From IMG/VR virus record IMGVR_UViG_3300045010_000538, positions 1-33,305 of that record: a stretch of 33,305 nucleotides of DNA; one strand, written 5' to 3'. This document shows positions 3,336-9,362 of the stretch, piece by piece; position 1 is the stretch's first letter, and every line of letters begins with the position of its first letter. Origin of the DNA: a virus. The notes under the pieces were generated by a model. That model saw only the letters and a program-made list of their open reading frames with translations. It ran no database searches and was not told where the DNA came from. Made by a program: the position numbers and the translations under genes.

Positions 3336-3420
3336 GCCTCCGAGCGGGTCCGGGGCGGAACCGAGGGAGAGGCCGAGCGCCTCCCGGCGAGCAGGGCTCG
3401 CGCGTGGATGGGGTCCCTCG

Positions 3421-3450
3421 TGCGTCCGGCGGCCGTAGTTGGCGGACGCA
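3421..3450 (+). promoter_or_regulatory. 8-base-pair hairpin in the leader of the small basic protein
   Basis: TGCGTCCG (3421-3428) and CGGACGCA (3443-3450) pair perfectly around a 14-base loop. The hairpin ends about 22 bases before the ATG at 3473 and leaves the GGAG ribosome binding site (3462-3465) free. It could regulate translation or stabilise the message. There is no T-run, so it is not a standard terminator. Confidence 0.4.
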
Positions 3451-3472
3451 GGAAAGAAGCCGGAGACAGACG

Positions 3473-3760
3473 ATGGCGAAGAAGACGACGGCGCAGGTGC
3501 GGGCCAGCGACGGGAAGAAGGTCCTCCGCAAGCCGTACCAGGCGGGGATGCGGACGGGCCGGGACATGGCTCGCTCGGGGGCGGTCAAGCGGAATGGGAG
3601 CGGCCTGAGCCGCAAGGGCGCGGCGACGCTGCGCGCGGCGCCCGGCGCGGCTCCTCGGGGCCAGCGATCGTTTCTCCGCGGCGTCCGCGACGGCGTGAAG
3701 GCCCAGCGCGCGATGCCGCGGGCGGGGAGCGCGACGGCCGCGCGATCGAGCGGCAGCTGA
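3473..3760 (+). CDS. Small, highly basic protein, 95 residues
   Basis: The ATG at 3473 follows a GGAG element by 7 bases; the frame is open further upstream but reads as non-protein-like Arg/Ser-rich sequence, so this start is preferred. The product begins MAKKTTAQVRASDGKK and is rich in Lys, Arg, Gly and Ala with almost no acidic residues, suggesting nucleic-acid binding or a largely disordered protein. No domain is recognised. Its TGA (3758-3760) abuts the stop of the convergent minus-strand gene with no space for a terminator. Confidence 0.5.
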   Translation: MAKKTTAQVRASDGKKVLRKPYQAGMRTGRDMARSGAVKRNGSGLSRKGAATLRAAPGAAPRGQRSFLRGVRDGVKAQRAMPRAGSATAARSSGS

Positions 3761-4183
3761 TCAGGTCAGCCCGCGGAGACGAGACGACGTCTTCGCCTTC
3801 GTCGGCCACTTCGGGCGGGGCGACTTGAGTTCGAGGCCGAGTTGAGCGGCGACAACCTCCCCGTCTAGGTATTTGTCGCCGAGCTCGAGGAGGCCCAGTG
3901 CGCGGAGGAACTCTTCCTTCTGTGCGCGGGACTGAAACGTGATCGCGACCCAGTATTCCGAGTCGGTCGCGTCACGGAACCGCTGCTCTTCGTCCTTGGC
4001 GCGCTCCTGGAAGGCCGTCTGAACACGCTCGAGCGCCTGCTCGACGGCGACGGGGCCGGCATCTTCCTCGGGGGGCGCCTCGGGAGAGGCGTCCCGGAGC
4101 GGTGTCGGACCACGGAGGGCGACGGGGCCGCCTCGGAGCGACGCGGGGCCCCGGAGGGGAAGCGGGGAACGATTACGCGGCAT
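3761..4183 (-). CDS. 140-residue partner of the PP-loop protein, function unknown
   Basis: This minus-strand gene starts at an ATG at 4183 with GGAGGA just upstream and overlaps the end of the PP-loop gene by 11 bases, so the two are coupled. The first 35 residues are a low-complexity tract of repeated LRGP-like units (PLRGPAS, LRGGPVA, LRGPTP). The middle (about 48-75) is a charged helix, VEQALERVQTAFQERAKDEE. The C-terminal half has a compact motif, YWVAITFQSRAQKEEFLRAL, followed by GDKYLDGEVVAAQLG. This resembles uncharacterised phage proteins I have seen described but cannot name. The overlap suggests work with the PP-loop enzyme, perhaps as adaptor or targeting factor; that is inference. 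Confidence 0.7.
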   Translation of the reverse strand: MPRNRSPLPLRGPASLRGGPVALRGPTPLRDASPEAPPEEDAGPVAVEQALERVQTAFQERAKDEEQRFRDATDSEYWVAITFQSRAQKEEFLRALGLLELGDKYLDGEVVAAQLGLELKSPRPKWPTKAKTSSRLRGLT

Positions 4184-4928
4184 GGGTCCTCCGGGCGGCG
4201 TACTCGCGCCGCTGGATGTCGAGGTGGGCGAGCGGGAACCACTCGAGGATCTTCGCGTAGTCCCGCGGGAAGCGCTCCTTGATGGGCGCGAGGAAGCGGT
4301 AGTCGATCCCGTCGAAGCTCCGGCCGAAGAGCTCGTAGTCGACCGGCAGCTTGCAGCGTTCGGTGTGCAGACAGCACTCCACGTCGGCGATCTTCCAGTC
4401 GTAGACGGCGAAGAAGCTCCGCCGCGTGTGGTTCGCGGACCCGTACCGGCGCACGTTGGCGAGGCGGATGGGCGAGTCCGCGGTGCGGGTTCCGATCGCG
4501 ACGTACGCATCGGGCGCGCCGGCGACGCGGCGGACGTGGGCCTCGACCTGCTCGTAGCTGAGCCGGGGCATCGGCGTCGCCTGGAGCGCGCGGACCCGGT
4601 CCGGTGGCTGGTAGACGAAGTTCTCCAGCATCCGCGGAAGCGAGGGGTGCGGGAGGCGGAGGATCGGCGTCCCGAAGAAGTCCTCGTAGTAGCGCAGCCC
4701 CTGCTCGACGAACTCGAGCCCGGGCACGAGGTACAGGTAGAAGAGGACGAGCCGCGGGAACATCTCGCGCAGCCGGAGGGCGGCCACCACGCTGTCCTTG
4801 CCCGCGCTGAAGCTGACGATGCAGGTGTCGCCGGACATGGCGCGGACGAAGCGGCAGAGCTCCTCGGAGTTCGCAAAGTGTCGCGGAGACTCGGCGGCGG
4901 CGGGCTTATCGGGGACAGCGCGGGGCAC
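4173..4928 (-). CDS. PAPS-reductase / PP-loop adenine nucleotide alpha-hydrolase family protein
   Basis: This is a 251-residue protein. SFSAGKDS at residues 39-46 is the PP-loop (S-x-G-K-D-S) that binds the ATP/PAPS phosphate in PAPS reductases, DndC-like and related enzymes. The fold continues with helices and strands such as VVAALRLREMFPRLVLFYLY. A cysteine cluster (CCLHTERC) lies near residues 184-192 and might bind metal or take part in redox chemistry. It starts at GTG 4928 with AAAAGGAG 7 bases upstream, inside the end of the preceding gene. Phage relatives are common, but their substrate is usually unknown. Candidate roles include nucleotide or sulfur chemistry, for example DNA or tRNA thiolation; the sequence does not decide. 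Confidence 0.85.
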   Translation of the reverse strand: MPRAVPDKPAAAESPRHFANSEELCRFVRAMSGDTCIVSFSAGKDSVVAALRLREMFPRLVLFYLYLVPGLEFVEQGLRYYEDFFGTPILRLPHPSLPRMLENFVYQPPDRVRALQATPMPRLSYEQVEAHVRRVAGAPDAYVAIGTRTADSPIRLANVRRYGSANHTRRSFFAVYDWKIADVECCLHTERCKLPVDYELFGRSFDGIDYRFLAPIKERFPRDYAKILEWFPLAHLDIQRREYAARRTHAA

Positions 4929-5092
4929 GGGGCTGCTCCTTTTCGGCCGGCAGGGCCGCGTGGCAGGTCATGCGGATCCAGGACGAGAGGTCGAGCCCCA
5001 GCCGGCGCGCTTCGGCCAACGAAGGCCTCGTGCTCGGTGGGGGTCATGCGCAGGAGCAGGTGCTTCGTGCGCAGCTCGGGGGGCGAGCTCAT
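4906..5092 (-). pseudogene. Ribbon-helix-helix-like regulator gene with a +1 frameshift
   Basis: From the ATG at 5092 the frame reads 25 residues typical of a small Arc/MobC-like protein (TKHLLLRMTPTEHEAFV). The matching continuation, AEARRLGLDLSSWIRMTC, is in the +1 frame: skipping one G at 5017 joins them into a 61-residue protein ending at a TAA at 4906-4908. The strand-helix-helix pattern, with 'LSSWIRM' as the second helix, fits ribbon-helix-helix DNA-binding proteins. Without the shift the first frame runs on with no stop through the PP-loop region, giving nonsense-like sequence. Possibilities are a true inactivating indel, a sequencing error, or programmed frameshifting. The coding region overlaps the PP-loop start by 23 bases. 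Binding to the adjacent GATATC boxes would make it the cassette's own repressor. Confidence 0.6.
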
Positions 5093-5117
5093 ATCAGGAT
5101 GATATCTGATAGATATC
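5090..5117. promoter_or_regulatory. Operator-like array of three GATATC-type boxes
   Basis: CATATC (5090-5095), GATATC (5101-5106) and GATATC (5112-5117) start exactly 11 bases apart, so they face the same side of the helix. Pairs of them also form inverted repeats (ATATC-5 bases-GATAT and GATATC-5 bases-GATATC). The stretch is strikingly AT-rich for this genome and lies between the divergent starts at 5092 and 5139. It covers the -10 element and start codon of the minus-strand cassette. Evenly phased short boxes are the usual operator form for ribbon-helix-helix repressors. Confidence 0.65.
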
Positions 5118-5127
5118 CATCCGGCAA
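5099..5127 (-). promoter_or_regulatory. Sigma-70-like promoter of the minus-strand cassette, probably leaderless
   Basis: Read on the minus strand: TTGCCG (5127-5122) is a -35 with four of six consensus bases, followed by a 17-base spacer and TATCAT (5104-5099), a -10 with five of six. Only six bases (CCTGAT) separate the -10 from the ATG at 5092, so transcription should begin at or next to the start codon. There is no ribosome binding site before that ATG, consistent with a leaderless message. Confidence 0.55.
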
Positions 5128-5138
5128 AGGACAGATCC

Positions 5139-5726
5139 ATGGCCGAGACGGATCGGCCCGAAACACTTCGGGAAAAGCCCCAGCAGCCCCGGCCCAAGAC
5201 GACGAAGGCGACGCCGAGGAAGCGCTCGGGCGGTCGCCAGGACCTCACGCTGACGCGCGCGCGTCACGAGGCGATCGTCGAGTCCGTAAGGTGCGGCAAC
5301 TACTACAAGACGTCGGCGAAGGCCGCCGGCGTTCCACTCTCGACCTTCTACGAGTGGATGCAGAAGGGCCGCGAGACGACCAGACAGCCCTTCCGGAAGT
5401 TCTACCTCGACGTCGCCTCCGCTCGTGAGGTCGCCGTCGATGAGCACGTGAAGTCCATCCACAACGCGGGCTTCACGCAGTGGCAGGCCCACGCGTGGCT
5501 CCTCGAGCGGACGGATCCGGGGCGGTTCGGTCGGAGGGACCCGGCCGTCGCCGAACTCGAACGAAAGGTCGCCGAGCTTGAAGGGCGCCTCGCTGCGGCA
5601 GCGGATTCAGGACGTCGAAGCGATCCTCAACGAGAGGGCTTCCAGGTCCTCGGCGCCGATGGAGTCGCGCTCGATCCGCCTGAACGGGCCACAGACGAAG
5701 GCCTACCGGAGCCTCCAACCGGGTAG
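5139..5726 (+). CDS. terS: Terminase small subunit
   Basis: This is a 195-residue protein directly before and overlapping the large terminase gene. After a basic, disordered N-terminus (residues 1-35), residues about 40-75 form a helix-turn-helix: ARHEAIVESVRCGNYYKTSAKAAGVPLSTFYEWMQKG is the classic order of phage small terminases, where Y-K-T-S-A-x-x-A-G-V and TFYEWM are the recognition elements. A central helical region and a coiled coil (ELERKVAELEGRLA, about 138-151) suit oligomer formation. It should recognise the packaging site and load the large subunit. The last 49 codons overlap the large subunit gene in another frame and have poor GC at third positions, suggesting that this tail is under weaker constraint. 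Confidence 0.88.
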   Translation: MAETDRPETLREKPQQPRPKTTKATPRKRSGGRQDLTLTRARHEAIVESVRCGNYYKTSAKAAGVPLSTFYEWMQKGRETTRQPFRKFYLDVASAREVAVDEHVKSIHNAGFTQWQAHAWLLERTDPGRFGRRDPAVAELERKVAELEGRLAAAADSGRRSDPQREGFQVLGADGVALDPPERATDEGLPEPPTG

Positions 5727-7065
5727 TTCGGTCTGCATGCCGTGGGGGCGTGGCGTCGGGAAGAGCCTTTTCGCGAGGTTCGAGTGGTACGACCACATCC
5801 GCCGCTGGGACGGGGTGCCGCGACAGCGAGCGCTCAAGCGCCTGCTCGGCGTGCGCATCGTGCTCCTCATGCCGACGTTCAAGGCGTGTAAGGACATCCA
5901 CGGCAGGCTGGTCGACGAGGAACTCGCGCCGCAAGGGCCGTGGGGATTTCTTGGGGCCCGGATCAACCACACCGAGTGGACGATCAGCTTCCCGGGCGGG
6001 AGCTGGATACAGTTCTTCGGCGCCAAGGAGGCGAACGCCTCTCGCGGCCTTCGCTGCGACATCGTGACGCCCGACGAGAGCGACGACATCGACCCTGGCG
6101 TCCTCGACGCCGTCGTGAAGCCGTGGTTCTCCGAGCCGTGGTCGCTCCGCAAGACGCTGCTCGGCGGGACGCCGCGGCGTGGCCGCTACGGCCTGCTCTA
6201 CCGCGAGCACAAGAAGGGGCTCGTTGGGGACGAGGCTCGAGCGCGCGACCTTGCGACGATCGAAGACGACGCCGAGCGCGTGAGCCTTCTCGGCCAGCGC
6301 AAGCGCTACAGTTTTCACGCCACCTACCGGGACGCTCCCGAGACAGTGGATCCAGCGTATGTCGCCGAGGTGCGCGCGGACATGTACGAACACGGGCAAG
6401 GCCAGGTGTTCGAGCGCGAATGGGAGTGCTCGTTCGAGTCGGGCGAAGGTCTCGTGTACCCGATGTTCGACGAGCGCTTCCACGTCCGCGAGGGTACAAC
6501 TGGGGCGTGGTCCGAGGTGCTCGTGGGTGGCGACCACGGCTGGGAGGACCCGGGAGTGCTGCTCGTGGTCGGCGTGCGCGGCAACGGCGCCGATGCGGAG
6601 TGCCACATCCTCGAAGAGGTCTACGCACAGCACCAGATCGAGGACTGGTGGGTAGAACGAGCTCGCGAGATCGTGAGGAAGTACCCGGGGGCACGCTGGT
6701 ATCCTGACCCGTCACGACCCGACCGGGTCGAGGCGTATCGGCGCAAGGCCGGCGCGCGCGTCCAGGAGGTCAACAACGCCATCGAGGATGGCGTCTCAGC
6801 GGTCGCGAACAAACTCGCTATTCGCAGGGCGGACAGCGGCGACTCGGAGGTGCGGTGGGCGCAGCTCTACGTCAGCCGAAAGTGCCCACGGACGATCGAA
6901 GAACTCAGCAAGTACAGGCGCAAGCGCGACCCGAGGAACGCCGACAAGTTCCTCGACGACGTCGAGGACAAGAACAACCACGCCATGGACGCGCTCCGCT
7001 ACGCCATCTTCTCCCGCTTCGGTGGCCCCTCGCGCACACGCACCGAGTTCGGTCCCGGCTACTAA
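5578..7065 (+). CDS. terL: Terminase large subunit (ATPase and nuclease)
   Basis: This 495-residue protein has a packaging-motor ATPase with Walker A GRGVGKS at residues 57-63, an IVTPDES Walker-B-like strand near 162-168 and a likely coupling motif in LLGGTP near 195-200. The nuclease domain begins GGDHGWEDPGVLLVV near 317 and ends with HAMDALRYAIF near 468-478, the usual closing acidic motif. It translocates phage DNA into the prohead through the portal and cuts it. The TTG at 5578 is preferred to the ATG at 5659 because codons between them are already strongly GC-ending in this frame, while the overlapping small-subunit frame is not. The TTG start remains a judgement. Confidence 0.93.
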   Translation: MKGASLRQRIQDVEAILNERASRSSAPMESRSIRLNGPQTKAYRSLQPGSSVCMPWGRGVGKSLFARFEWYDHIRRWDGVPRQRALKRLLGVRIVLLMPTFKACKDIHGRLVDEELAPQGPWGFLGARINHTEWTISFPGGSWIQFFGAKEANASRGLRCDIVTPDESDDIDPGVLDAVVKPWFSEPWSLRKTLLGGTPRRGRYGLLYREHKKGLVGDEARARDLATIEDDAERVSLLGQRKRYSFHATYRDAPETVDPAYVAEVRADMYEHGQGQVFEREWECSFESGEGLVYPMFDERFHVREGTTGAWSEVLVGGDHGWEDPGVLLVVGVRGNGADAECHILEEVYAQHQIEDWWVERAREIVRKYPGARWYPDPSRPDRVEAYRRKAGARVQEVNNAIEDGVSAVANKLAIRRADSGDSEVRWAQLYVSRKCPRTIEELSKYRRKRDPRNADKFLDDVEDKNNHAMDALRYAIFSRFGGPSRTRTEFGPGY

Positions 7066-7071
7066 GGCGTC

Positions 7072-8880
7072 ATGTTGTCGTCCCAGTATGCCGCGGAGCG
7101 TGACCTCGCCGAGAAAACGCTTCGTGCGAACGTTGCGGCGCGAGCCTCTCGCATGGACATGCTGGTCCGCTATGCCGAAGGGCGCCAGTACGAGGGCCGC
7201 CCGTCATTCTGGGACGGGTCGGTGCCGCTCTTCCGGAGGGCGCCATGCGTGGTCTACGCGGCGCCGGCCATGGCCGCGCACTCGTTCGTGGCACTGCTAC
7301 TCGGCGAGGAGCGGTTCTGCGGCCTGACCTCGCATCCTGGCGAGAACGATGCGGCGTTCGACGATGCCTTCGGTCTGGACGAGGCCGACTCGGCCACGCT
7401 GGACCGATTCACCGAGTCGATGCTCCGGCGCGGGCACGTGTTGCGCTCGCTTCGAGCGTTGCTCTACCGGTCGCTCGTGGCCGGCTGCGCGGTCGCAGTC
7501 GGCTCGATGCGACACGGCACACCCGCTCTGTCGACCCTCCCCGCGGAGTGGTGCACGGCGGAACGCGGGGCCGACGGCCAGGTAACCAAGCTCGAGGTCC
7601 TCTACCCGCAGATCGAGGACGAGACCGCGGCCGACGGGTCGAAGCATCCGGTGTGCATGTTGTACCGGCGAGTCATCGACGGCACGACCGACACGACCTA
7701 CCTCCCAACGCGAGCGCTCCTCGACGGCACGAAGCCGGAGGAGTGGCGCGTCGACAGGGAGCGCACGGTCGAGCACGGTTTCGGGTTCTGCCCGGTCGTG
7801 TGGTACGCCAACCGGCACGAGTCCAACGACCTCGTGGCGGTCGACTCAGGGCGTGCGATCCATGACCTCGTGCTGGACGAGCTCGACGGGTTGAACTTCG
7901 CGCTATCGGTGCGGCACCGCGCCGCGATGATGTTGGGCGACCCGATGATCGTCGAGATCGGCGTCGACAAGGACTACCAGCAGGCGCCACAGGGCGCGGT
8001 CTGGCGCAGCGCGCACATGGGTCAGGGCGACCACCCGGACAACTACAGGTGGGGCCGCTGGGAGCAAAGCGGCGCCATGGGGACGATGAAAGGCCCGGGG
8101 ACGACGTGGCGGTACGAATCGCCGCAGACGAAGGTCGACATCCTCACGCTGCCATCGGGCGCACTCGACCCGCTCGTCAAGAACGCTGACGATCTCCTCG
8201 CCACCGTGGCCGAGAGCACGGCCTGGGTCCCCACGGACGCGAAGCAGCTGAGCCTCGGCACGGCACCGAGTGGCAGGGCGTTCGAGTGGCTGCACAAGAA
8301 GCAGATCGACCGCTGTCTCGAGCTGCGAGAGGACTTCGGCGAGGGCTGCATTCTGGCGTGCGTGGGGGTGCTGCTTCGCATGGTCCTTGCGACCCCGGCG
8401 GCGCGGGTCCGACTCGGCGGCGTCCGTGAAACGCAGGCGATCCTGGGGCGCTTTCTCGTGGCCGTCGAGGGCGGGTTCGACTGGGTGCCGCCAGAGTTCA
8501 AGTGCAAGTGGGGGCCGTTCTTCCCGCCGACCGAGGCGGACATGAGGCTCGTGAGCGAGGCGGCGCGCGCCGACCTACTCGCGGGCATCATCACGAAGCG
8601 CACGGCCGTCGAACGGCTGGCGCCGTTCTACGCCATCAAGAACGTGGATCAGTACCTCGATGCGCTTGAGGGAGAGGAGGCCGAGCGCGACGGCGCGCTC
8701 GAGGGCGCTCTGCGGAACCTTCAGAAGGCGAGCGCGGTGGACGAGGACGAAGCGGGCGAAGCGGACGAAGGTGTTGCGGCGTCGGCCCCCACGCCCGCGG
8801 CGAAGCCTGTTCCGCCGCGCAGGACCACTGTGGAGGTGGGCGTCGTGCGAGGCCGTACGCGCGCCGCCGCAGGAGGATGA
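7072..8880 (+). CDS. Portal protein
   Basis: This 602-residue protein lies immediately after the large terminase, the normal portal position, with a matching size. It has a long helical N-terminus (RASRMDMLVRYAEGRQY), then a mixed core and a long C-terminal helical section where residues such as VPTDAKQLSLGTAPSGRAFEW resemble the loop before the portal stem and wing. The last 70 residues are an acidic then Pro/Arg-rich tail. It would form the dodecameric ring through which DNA enters and to which the neck attaches. No single diagnostic motif is visible, so the call rests on position, length and overall pattern. Confidence 0.85.
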   Translation: MLSSQYAAERDLAEKTLRANVAARASRMDMLVRYAEGRQYEGRPSFWDGSVPLFRRAPCVVYAAPAMAAHSFVALLLGEERFCGLTSHPGENDAAFDDAFGLDEADSATLDRFTESMLRRGHVLRSLRALLYRSLVAGCAVAVGSMRHGTPALSTLPAEWCTAERGADGQVTKLEVLYPQIEDETAADGSKHPVCMLYRRVIDGTTDTTYLPTRALLDGTKPEEWRVDRERTVEHGFGFCPVVWYANRHESNDLVAVDSGRAIHDLVLDELDGLNFALSVRHRAAMMLGDPMIVEIGVDKDYQQAPQGAVWRSAHMGQGDHPDNYRWGRWEQSGAMGTMKGPGTTWRYESPQTKVDILTLPSGALDPLVKNADDLLATVAESTAWVPTDAKQLSLGTAPSGRAFEWLHKKQIDRCLELREDFGEGCILACVGVLLRMVLATPAARVRLGGVRETQAILGRFLVAVEGGFDWVPPEFKCKWGPFFPPTEADMRLVSEAARADLLAGIITKRTAVERLAPFYAIKNVDQYLDALEGEEAERDGALEGALRNLQKASAVDEDEAGEADEGVAASAPTPAAKPVPPRRTTVEVGVVRGRTRAAAGG

Positions 8881-9362
8881 TGTTCGAGTCGACCTTGCCC
8901 AGGACCGACGAGGATCGGCAGCGGATCGCCGACGTGCTGAACTCCTGCGTCGCCTCGGGGATCGACCTCTATAACGGTGCGAAGTTCGCGCACTGGAACG
9001 TGCGAGGCCCCGCGTTCGGCCCGTTGCACGCGCTCTTCGGCGAGGTCGCCGGCGTCGTCGCCGACCAGGTCGACATCCTCGCCGAGCGCGTCTCGCAGGT
9101 CGGCGTACTCGCGCTGGGCACGACGCAGCAGGTCGCGGCCGAGTCCAGACTCGACGACATGCCGACGGACGAGACCGACGGCTACGCGCTCTGCCGGATC
9201 CTGTTCGACCGGGTGCGGCAGTGCGTCGCGCTGCTCTCGCAGGCTCGAAACGACAGCGACGAGCTGGGCGCGCTCGACACGTCGCAACTCTTGAGCGACG
9301 CCATCCTGGCGTTCGACAAGCTCGGCTGGAAGCTCGTGGCGCACGTCCCCCGCGGTGCCTGA
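8880..9362 (+). CDS. dps: Dps-family ferritin-like protein encoded in the head module
   Basis: This 160-residue protein matches Dps along its whole length. The ferroxidase signature is complete: AHWNVRG gives His38, PLHALF gives His50, and DILAER gives Asp65 and Glu69. The spacings of 12, 15 and 4 equal those of Listeria innocua Dps. Further hallmarks follow: LALGT, then MPTDETDG, and a C-terminal helix ending WKLVAHV. Dps forms 12-mers that oxidise and store iron and, in some species, bind DNA. AGGAGG lies three bases before this ATG, which overlaps the portal stop (TGATG); an ATG at 8877 is the alternative. A Dps between portal and MuF genes is unusual: it may be packaged, protect DNA from peroxide, or be a cargo or decoration protein. 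Confidence 0.9.
   Translation: MFESTLPRTDEDRQRIADVLNSCVASGIDLYNGAKFAHWNVRGPAFGPLHALFGEVAGVVADQVDILAERVSQVGVLALGTTQQVAAESRLDDMPTDETDGYALCRILFDRVRQCVALLSQARNDSDELGALDTSQLLSDAILAFDKLGWKLVAHVPRGA

Follow-up and report, generated by a model that had tools for sequence, protein, structure and literature searches.

Three helically phased GATATC-like boxes at the start of a terminase-linked PP-loop ATPase cassette: a candidate autorepressor operator in a viral genome

Three phased boxes over the start of a minus-strand cassette

Analysis of the window, the whole 33,305-nucleotide stretch of viral DNA studied here, revealed three short boxes upstream of the terminase genes (Table 1) that are most likely an element of an ordinary kind, an autorepressor operator. 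The boxes would form the operator at the promoter of a minus-strand cassette of three genes, encoding a candidate regulator, a PP-loop ATPase and its partner g3. This is our best reading, which we hold with middling confidence, and it predicts that the regulator binds the boxes. By themselves the boxes would be one further autorepressor operator; the genes under their control matter more, and the cassette, rather than the boxes, is the surprising part.

Table 1. Features of the window in the region of the phased boxes
Feature	Position	Strand	Remarks
95-residue basic protein	3473..3760	+	23 K/R, 3 D/E; ends RSSGS; convergent with g3
g3, partner protein	3761..4183	-	motif DSEYW...GDKYLDG; no family
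PP-loop ATPase	4173..4928	-	annotated phosphoadenosine phosphosulfate reductase in relatives
RHH-like (NikA-like) gene, possible autorepressor	4906..5092	-	two frames, +1 shift near codon 25
Box 1, CATATC	5090..5095	.	overlaps ATG of first cassette gene
Promoter-like site TTGCCG-17-TATCAT	5099..5127	-	sigma-70-like; leaderless layout
Box 2, GATATC	5101..5106	.	overlaps minus-strand -10
Box 3, GATATC	5112..5117	.	within -10/-35 spacer
TerS, terminase small subunit	5139..5726	+	divergent from cassette; Shine-Dalgarno-like AAAGGA at 5126-5131
TerL, terminase large subunit	5578..7065	+

The boxes have several characteristic features, all of which bear out the initial annotation: (i) they follow one another at an exact 11-bp spacing, with centres at 5092.5, 5103.5 and 5114.5, two of the three being perfect palindromes, (ii) they occupy the most AT-rich spot of the window, as the maximal A+T stretches of 28, 40 and 60 bases, taken over the whole 33.3 kb (68% G+C), all start at 5089, (iii) they are located between divergent genes, TerS on the plus strand and the cassette on the minus strand, and (iv) they overlap both the -10 element and the start codon of the first cassette gene. 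A ribbon-helix-helix (RHH) operator has this arrangement, with palindromic subsites that recur on a single helix face across a promoter.

The clustering of the boxes, and not their total number, is what stands out, since SATATC occurs 7 times in the window against 7.6 expected. This lack of enrichment also fits a chance origin, in which the region is AT-rich as the starts of two divergent genes share 46 bases, and the repeated ATATC is a by-product. In the same direction point the four bases that box 2 has in common with the -10 element and the 7 identical 5-mer triples that the window contains when any single spacing between 7 and 22 bp is allowed. The ATATC triple at 5091 is the sole identical 5-mer triple at 11 bp in the window. 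A chance origin is opposed by composition-keeping local shuffles: 3 of 3000 dinucleotide shuffles of 5085-5140, and none of 300 in a second local run, contained an identical 5-mer triple spaced at 10 or 11 bp, the test being post hoc, as it was picked once the boxes had been seen. We consider a chance origin a possible but rather doubtful explanation.

Promoter and terminase sides of the boxes

The promoter-like site beneath the boxes is the sole sigma-70-like site in 3400-5700, where 0.1 would be expected. Its -10 element ends 6 bases ahead of the ATG at 5092-5090, and thus the transcript would start at or beside the start codon. With start codons chosen by hand, the same leaderless layout was observed in five of the six scored regions (the window, L036, L044, L047 and L051, not L046); in L047 and L051 it was no better than in shuffles (70/300 and 143/300, respectively). 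On the plus strand of 3400-5700, no sigma-70-like promoter was found for TerS, and the earlier suggestion that the boxes could also act on the terminase operon is therefore unsupported.

The boxes lie 22-49 bases 5' of TerS, and might instead serve packaging, as the places where TerS binds a cos or pac site located just 5' of this gene. TerS matches HTH models weakly, and one TerL relative (L019) has four TGCA copies one turn apart in a similar place. However, phased ATATC was found upstream of TerL in none of the 20 relatives with upstream sequence, where a single GATATC occurs in 27.9 kb, and 5-mer phasing was absent from 18 of 19 TerL relatives; the boxes are thus not kept ahead of TerS in TerL relatives, as a cos or pac site would be. 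Moreover, several TerL relatives share a GGCGGTAACGGGCG-like element, which is a stronger candidate for a packaging site or a late promoter. With TerL identities of 41-52% at best, the site may have drifted; nevertheless, we consider a packaging role unlikely. Counted over 23 regions upstream of TerS, 5-mer triples phased at 10 or 11 bp were missing from 21 and present in the window and L019 only.

The GGCGGTAACGGGCG-like element, a candidate cos/pac or late-promoter element, occurs shortly before TerS in L008, L011, L012, L013 and L014, and its place is taken by a ACGGTAAAAACACGG-like element in L016, L017 and L018. The TGCA copies of L019 (364-400; spacings of 11, 10 and 10 bp) are situated between a small frame that is HTH-like by eye and TerS; no cassette was seen in this locus. 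Further downstream in the window, a Dps/ferritin-like gene (8877-9362) directly follows the portal gene.

The candidate regulator

The first cassette gene was initially annotated as encoding an RHH protein, and this assignment stands in part. The read-through protein of 61 residues matches the Pfam NikA-like family PF21983 (E 1.5e-5) over residues 8-43, a match that crosses the frame junction and takes in both frames; its score of 25.4 bits is below the curated cut-off of 27 bits. The gene is not a single open frame, and the +1 shift may be an assembly error or the mark of a pseudogene. PHROGs yielded a weak Arc-like match (E 0.098). The RHH-like protein has no sequence match among solved structures; a tblastn search of 50,697 phage records, run up to E 1, gave no homologue, and the IMG/VR search no relative. 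In 49 related records, PF21983 was not found near the cassette, the three weak matches each lying far from it. NikA-like proteins, the mobilization family that provides the best Pfam match, are known chiefly as relaxosome accessories, not as repressors; unlike in NikA-like mobilization systems, no relaxase was seen in the cassette.

The autorepressor reading draws on the boxes themselves, the AT peak, the phasing, its rarity upstream of TerS elsewhere, the sole promoter-like site beneath the boxes and the NikA-like match, as well as on the comparisons with L019, L047, other upstream ORFs and RelB. It is weakened by the frameshifted regulator, for which no relative was found, by the sub-cut-off Pfam score, by the missing structural match, by the relaxosome role of NikA-like proteins and by the post hoc significance test. 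Given an intact regulator, one RHH dimer would occupy each palindromic box, and dimers placed one helical turn apart on the same DNA face would be expected to bind cooperatively. The bound dimers would cover the -10 element and the transcription start, and the product of the first gene would in this way turn off its own operon.

In the Arc/Mnt-type operators of P22, a small RHH protein is combined with subsites about 11 bp apart and with an operator over the promoter. The window would resemble them in all three respects, and differs in having three boxes, a GATATC core and a candidate regulator that is frameshifted and NikA-like by sequence. As described in PMC2812701, Escherichia coli RelB binds as RHH dimers to 6-bp repeats on one DNA face, and the spacing is essential. 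The 6-bp repeats, the dimers on one face and the autorepression of its operator relO parallel what we propose for the window, whereas relO consists of four TTGTAA-like hexads without spacing. Unlike in the RelB system, no toxin gene was identified in the cassette of the window.

Small DNA-binding genes of several families (HTH, RHH and others) precede the PP-loop gene in other loci; thus, the regulator is a variable part of the cassette, and a nearby operator is an expected kind of thing. Fourteen regulator-like upstream ORFs were hand-picked out of 90 loci, which is not a survey; four of them pass a DNA-binding Pfam cut-off (L048, where the ORF is two genes upstream, L051, L075 and L077), and four have weak Pfam matches (L044, L058, L066 and L120). 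The PP-loop gene of L047 is preceded by a gene that is Arc-like by eye (not significant in Pfam, E 0.08 or worse) and that has the palindromic boxes TTGTACAACA and TTGTACAATA, 10 bp apart, just 5' of its promoter; 3 of 200 control shuffles contained a 7-mer pair spaced by 10 or 11 bp. The PP-loop gene of L044 (1241-2182) encodes an HTH-like N-terminus in frame, and may combine regulator and enzyme in one protein.

The variety of the genes preceding the cassette, together with the frameshift in the RHH gene, would also suit an operator for a different regulator, from the phage or the host, acting as repressor or activator on one of the divergent genes or on both. TerS needs a transcription start yet shows no sigma-70 site, as in the case of an activated late promoter. 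However, no other candidate is tied to the boxes, and we consider this explanation improbable.

The cassette and its linkage to the terminase genes

To describe the cassette in other phages, we used a set of 91 loci, which fall into 77 clusters at 85% PP-loop protein identity. It comprises 80 IMG/VR loci, obtained with a profile of eight PP-loop proteins and kept out of at least 134 confirmed relatives, as well as the window and earlier loci. The g3 gene is paired with the PP-loop ATPase gene in 88 of the 91 loci, being missing from L041-L043, and both domains are encoded in one open frame in L109 (5989-7377) and L120 (2862-4112). TerL, which was searched in 50 of 90 loci, lies at most 2.1 kb from the PP-loop gene in 24 of the 27 IMG/VR contigs with a TerL match; among contigs of at least 20 kb, it is within this distance in 12 of 13, against 1.7 expected. 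The divergent arrangement of TerS and the cassette was also observed in Cutibacterium phage CA1NRNZ, L045 and L046. No PP-loop gene and no RHH gene were found in 32 TerL-relative loci, many of them short, and a genome-contig scan for relatives found one, L035. The operon is thus recurrent and terminase-linked. Our literature search found no description of the cassette or of the shared tail discussed below, and a cassette of this kind beside phage DNA-packaging genes appears to be undescribed in the literature and curated families searched.

No credible Pfam, NCBIfam or PHROGs family was obtained for the g3 proteins scanned. Comparison of a g3 profile with solved structures and of a g3 model (pLDDT 78, pTM 0.52) with the PDB likewise gave nothing credible.

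The PP-loop enzyme is predicted with high model confidence (pLDDT 95.7) to have the fold of N-type ATP pyrophosphatases, which it shares with CysH and with FAD synthase, TilS, LarE and TtuA. Among the best 50 structural matches listed, FAD synthase, phosphoadenosine phosphosulfate (PAPS) reductase, TilS and LarE are nearly tied at Z 13.0-10.8, with identities of 9-17%; 5gha, a TtuA-TtuB structure, is also among the matches listed. A profile of the PP-loop alignment retrieved nothing at E 0.01 from solved structures. The SxGKD motif is present in 88 of the 91 PP-loop proteins. The catalytic motif of CysH, CG[IL]H, sits near the C-terminus. In none of the 91 proteins was CG[ILV]H found in the domain, the one match in L045 lying upstream of the gene, and thus 'PAPS reductase' is here the name of a fold and of a putative activity. 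The group of the window differs from CysH in lacking the CGxH motif in the domain, in its identity of 9-17% and in its fixed partner g3. The Pfam score for PF01507 is 13.1 bits against a cut-off of 22.5 (20.4 for the Pm86 homologue). The DndC/SspD DNA-sulfur defence proteins were rejected as an assignment, as they gave just a weak SspD match (E 0.016).

Tiny basic proteins with a shared C-terminal tail

The RSSGS-ending protein of the window lies outside the operon under the boxes and is convergent with it. The tail [ST]SG[ST] closes 57 of the 3884 frames of 20-130 codons in a zone around the PP-loop gene (-1300 to +1800) that was set after examples had been seen. Outside this zone, 4 of 8491 frames of these loci end in it, two of them (in L079 and L084) apparently genuine, and the control loci L001-L032, which have no cassette, gave 1 of 4077. 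Such tailed tiny proteins were found in 44 of the 91 loci and in 32 of the 77 clusters. The residue before the tail, not part of the search pattern, is arginine in 51 of the 57. For the tiny proteins scanned, no credible Pfam, NCBIfam or PHROGs family was obtained.

The shared tail suggests that the tiny proteins could be substrates of the enzyme. In the TtuA-TtuB sulfur transfer system and in the adenylation of microcin C7 by MccB, an ATP-using enzyme acts on a small protein at its C-terminus. By analogy, the cassette may pair an ATP-using enzyme with small-protein C-termini; it differs in the RSSG[ST] tail and in the subgroup of the enzyme, the activity of which is putative. We tentatively propose, with low confidence, that the cassette is an unrecognised phage protein-modification system, in which the PP-loop ATPase, with g3 as an adaptor, would use ATP to activate RSSG[ST] C-termini, the tailed proteins would act on DNA or RNA at packaging, and the phased RHH operator would set the dose in the window. 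If so, 'PAPS reductase' and 'sulfur auxiliary gene' would be wrong labels for this group of PP-loop proteins. In PMC10434257 and PMC9144972, such phage genes are counted as sulfur-metabolism genes. The genes counted in this way include a large group characterized by the lack of the reductase motif, a fixed partner, a terminase-adjacent position and tailed tiny proteins, which does not imply that the phages of these two papers carry it.

Variant tails were recognized by eye in 8 further loci (L038, L056, L075, L081, L088, L090, L106 and L118), and the remaining 39 of the 91 loci have no acceptable [ST]SG[ST] or variant tail. In the Lactobacillus phages L041 and L042, which encode distant PP-loop relatives and lack g3, the next gene encodes a protein with the C-terminus GSTGSKGG or GSSGKSSG, perhaps a related tail.
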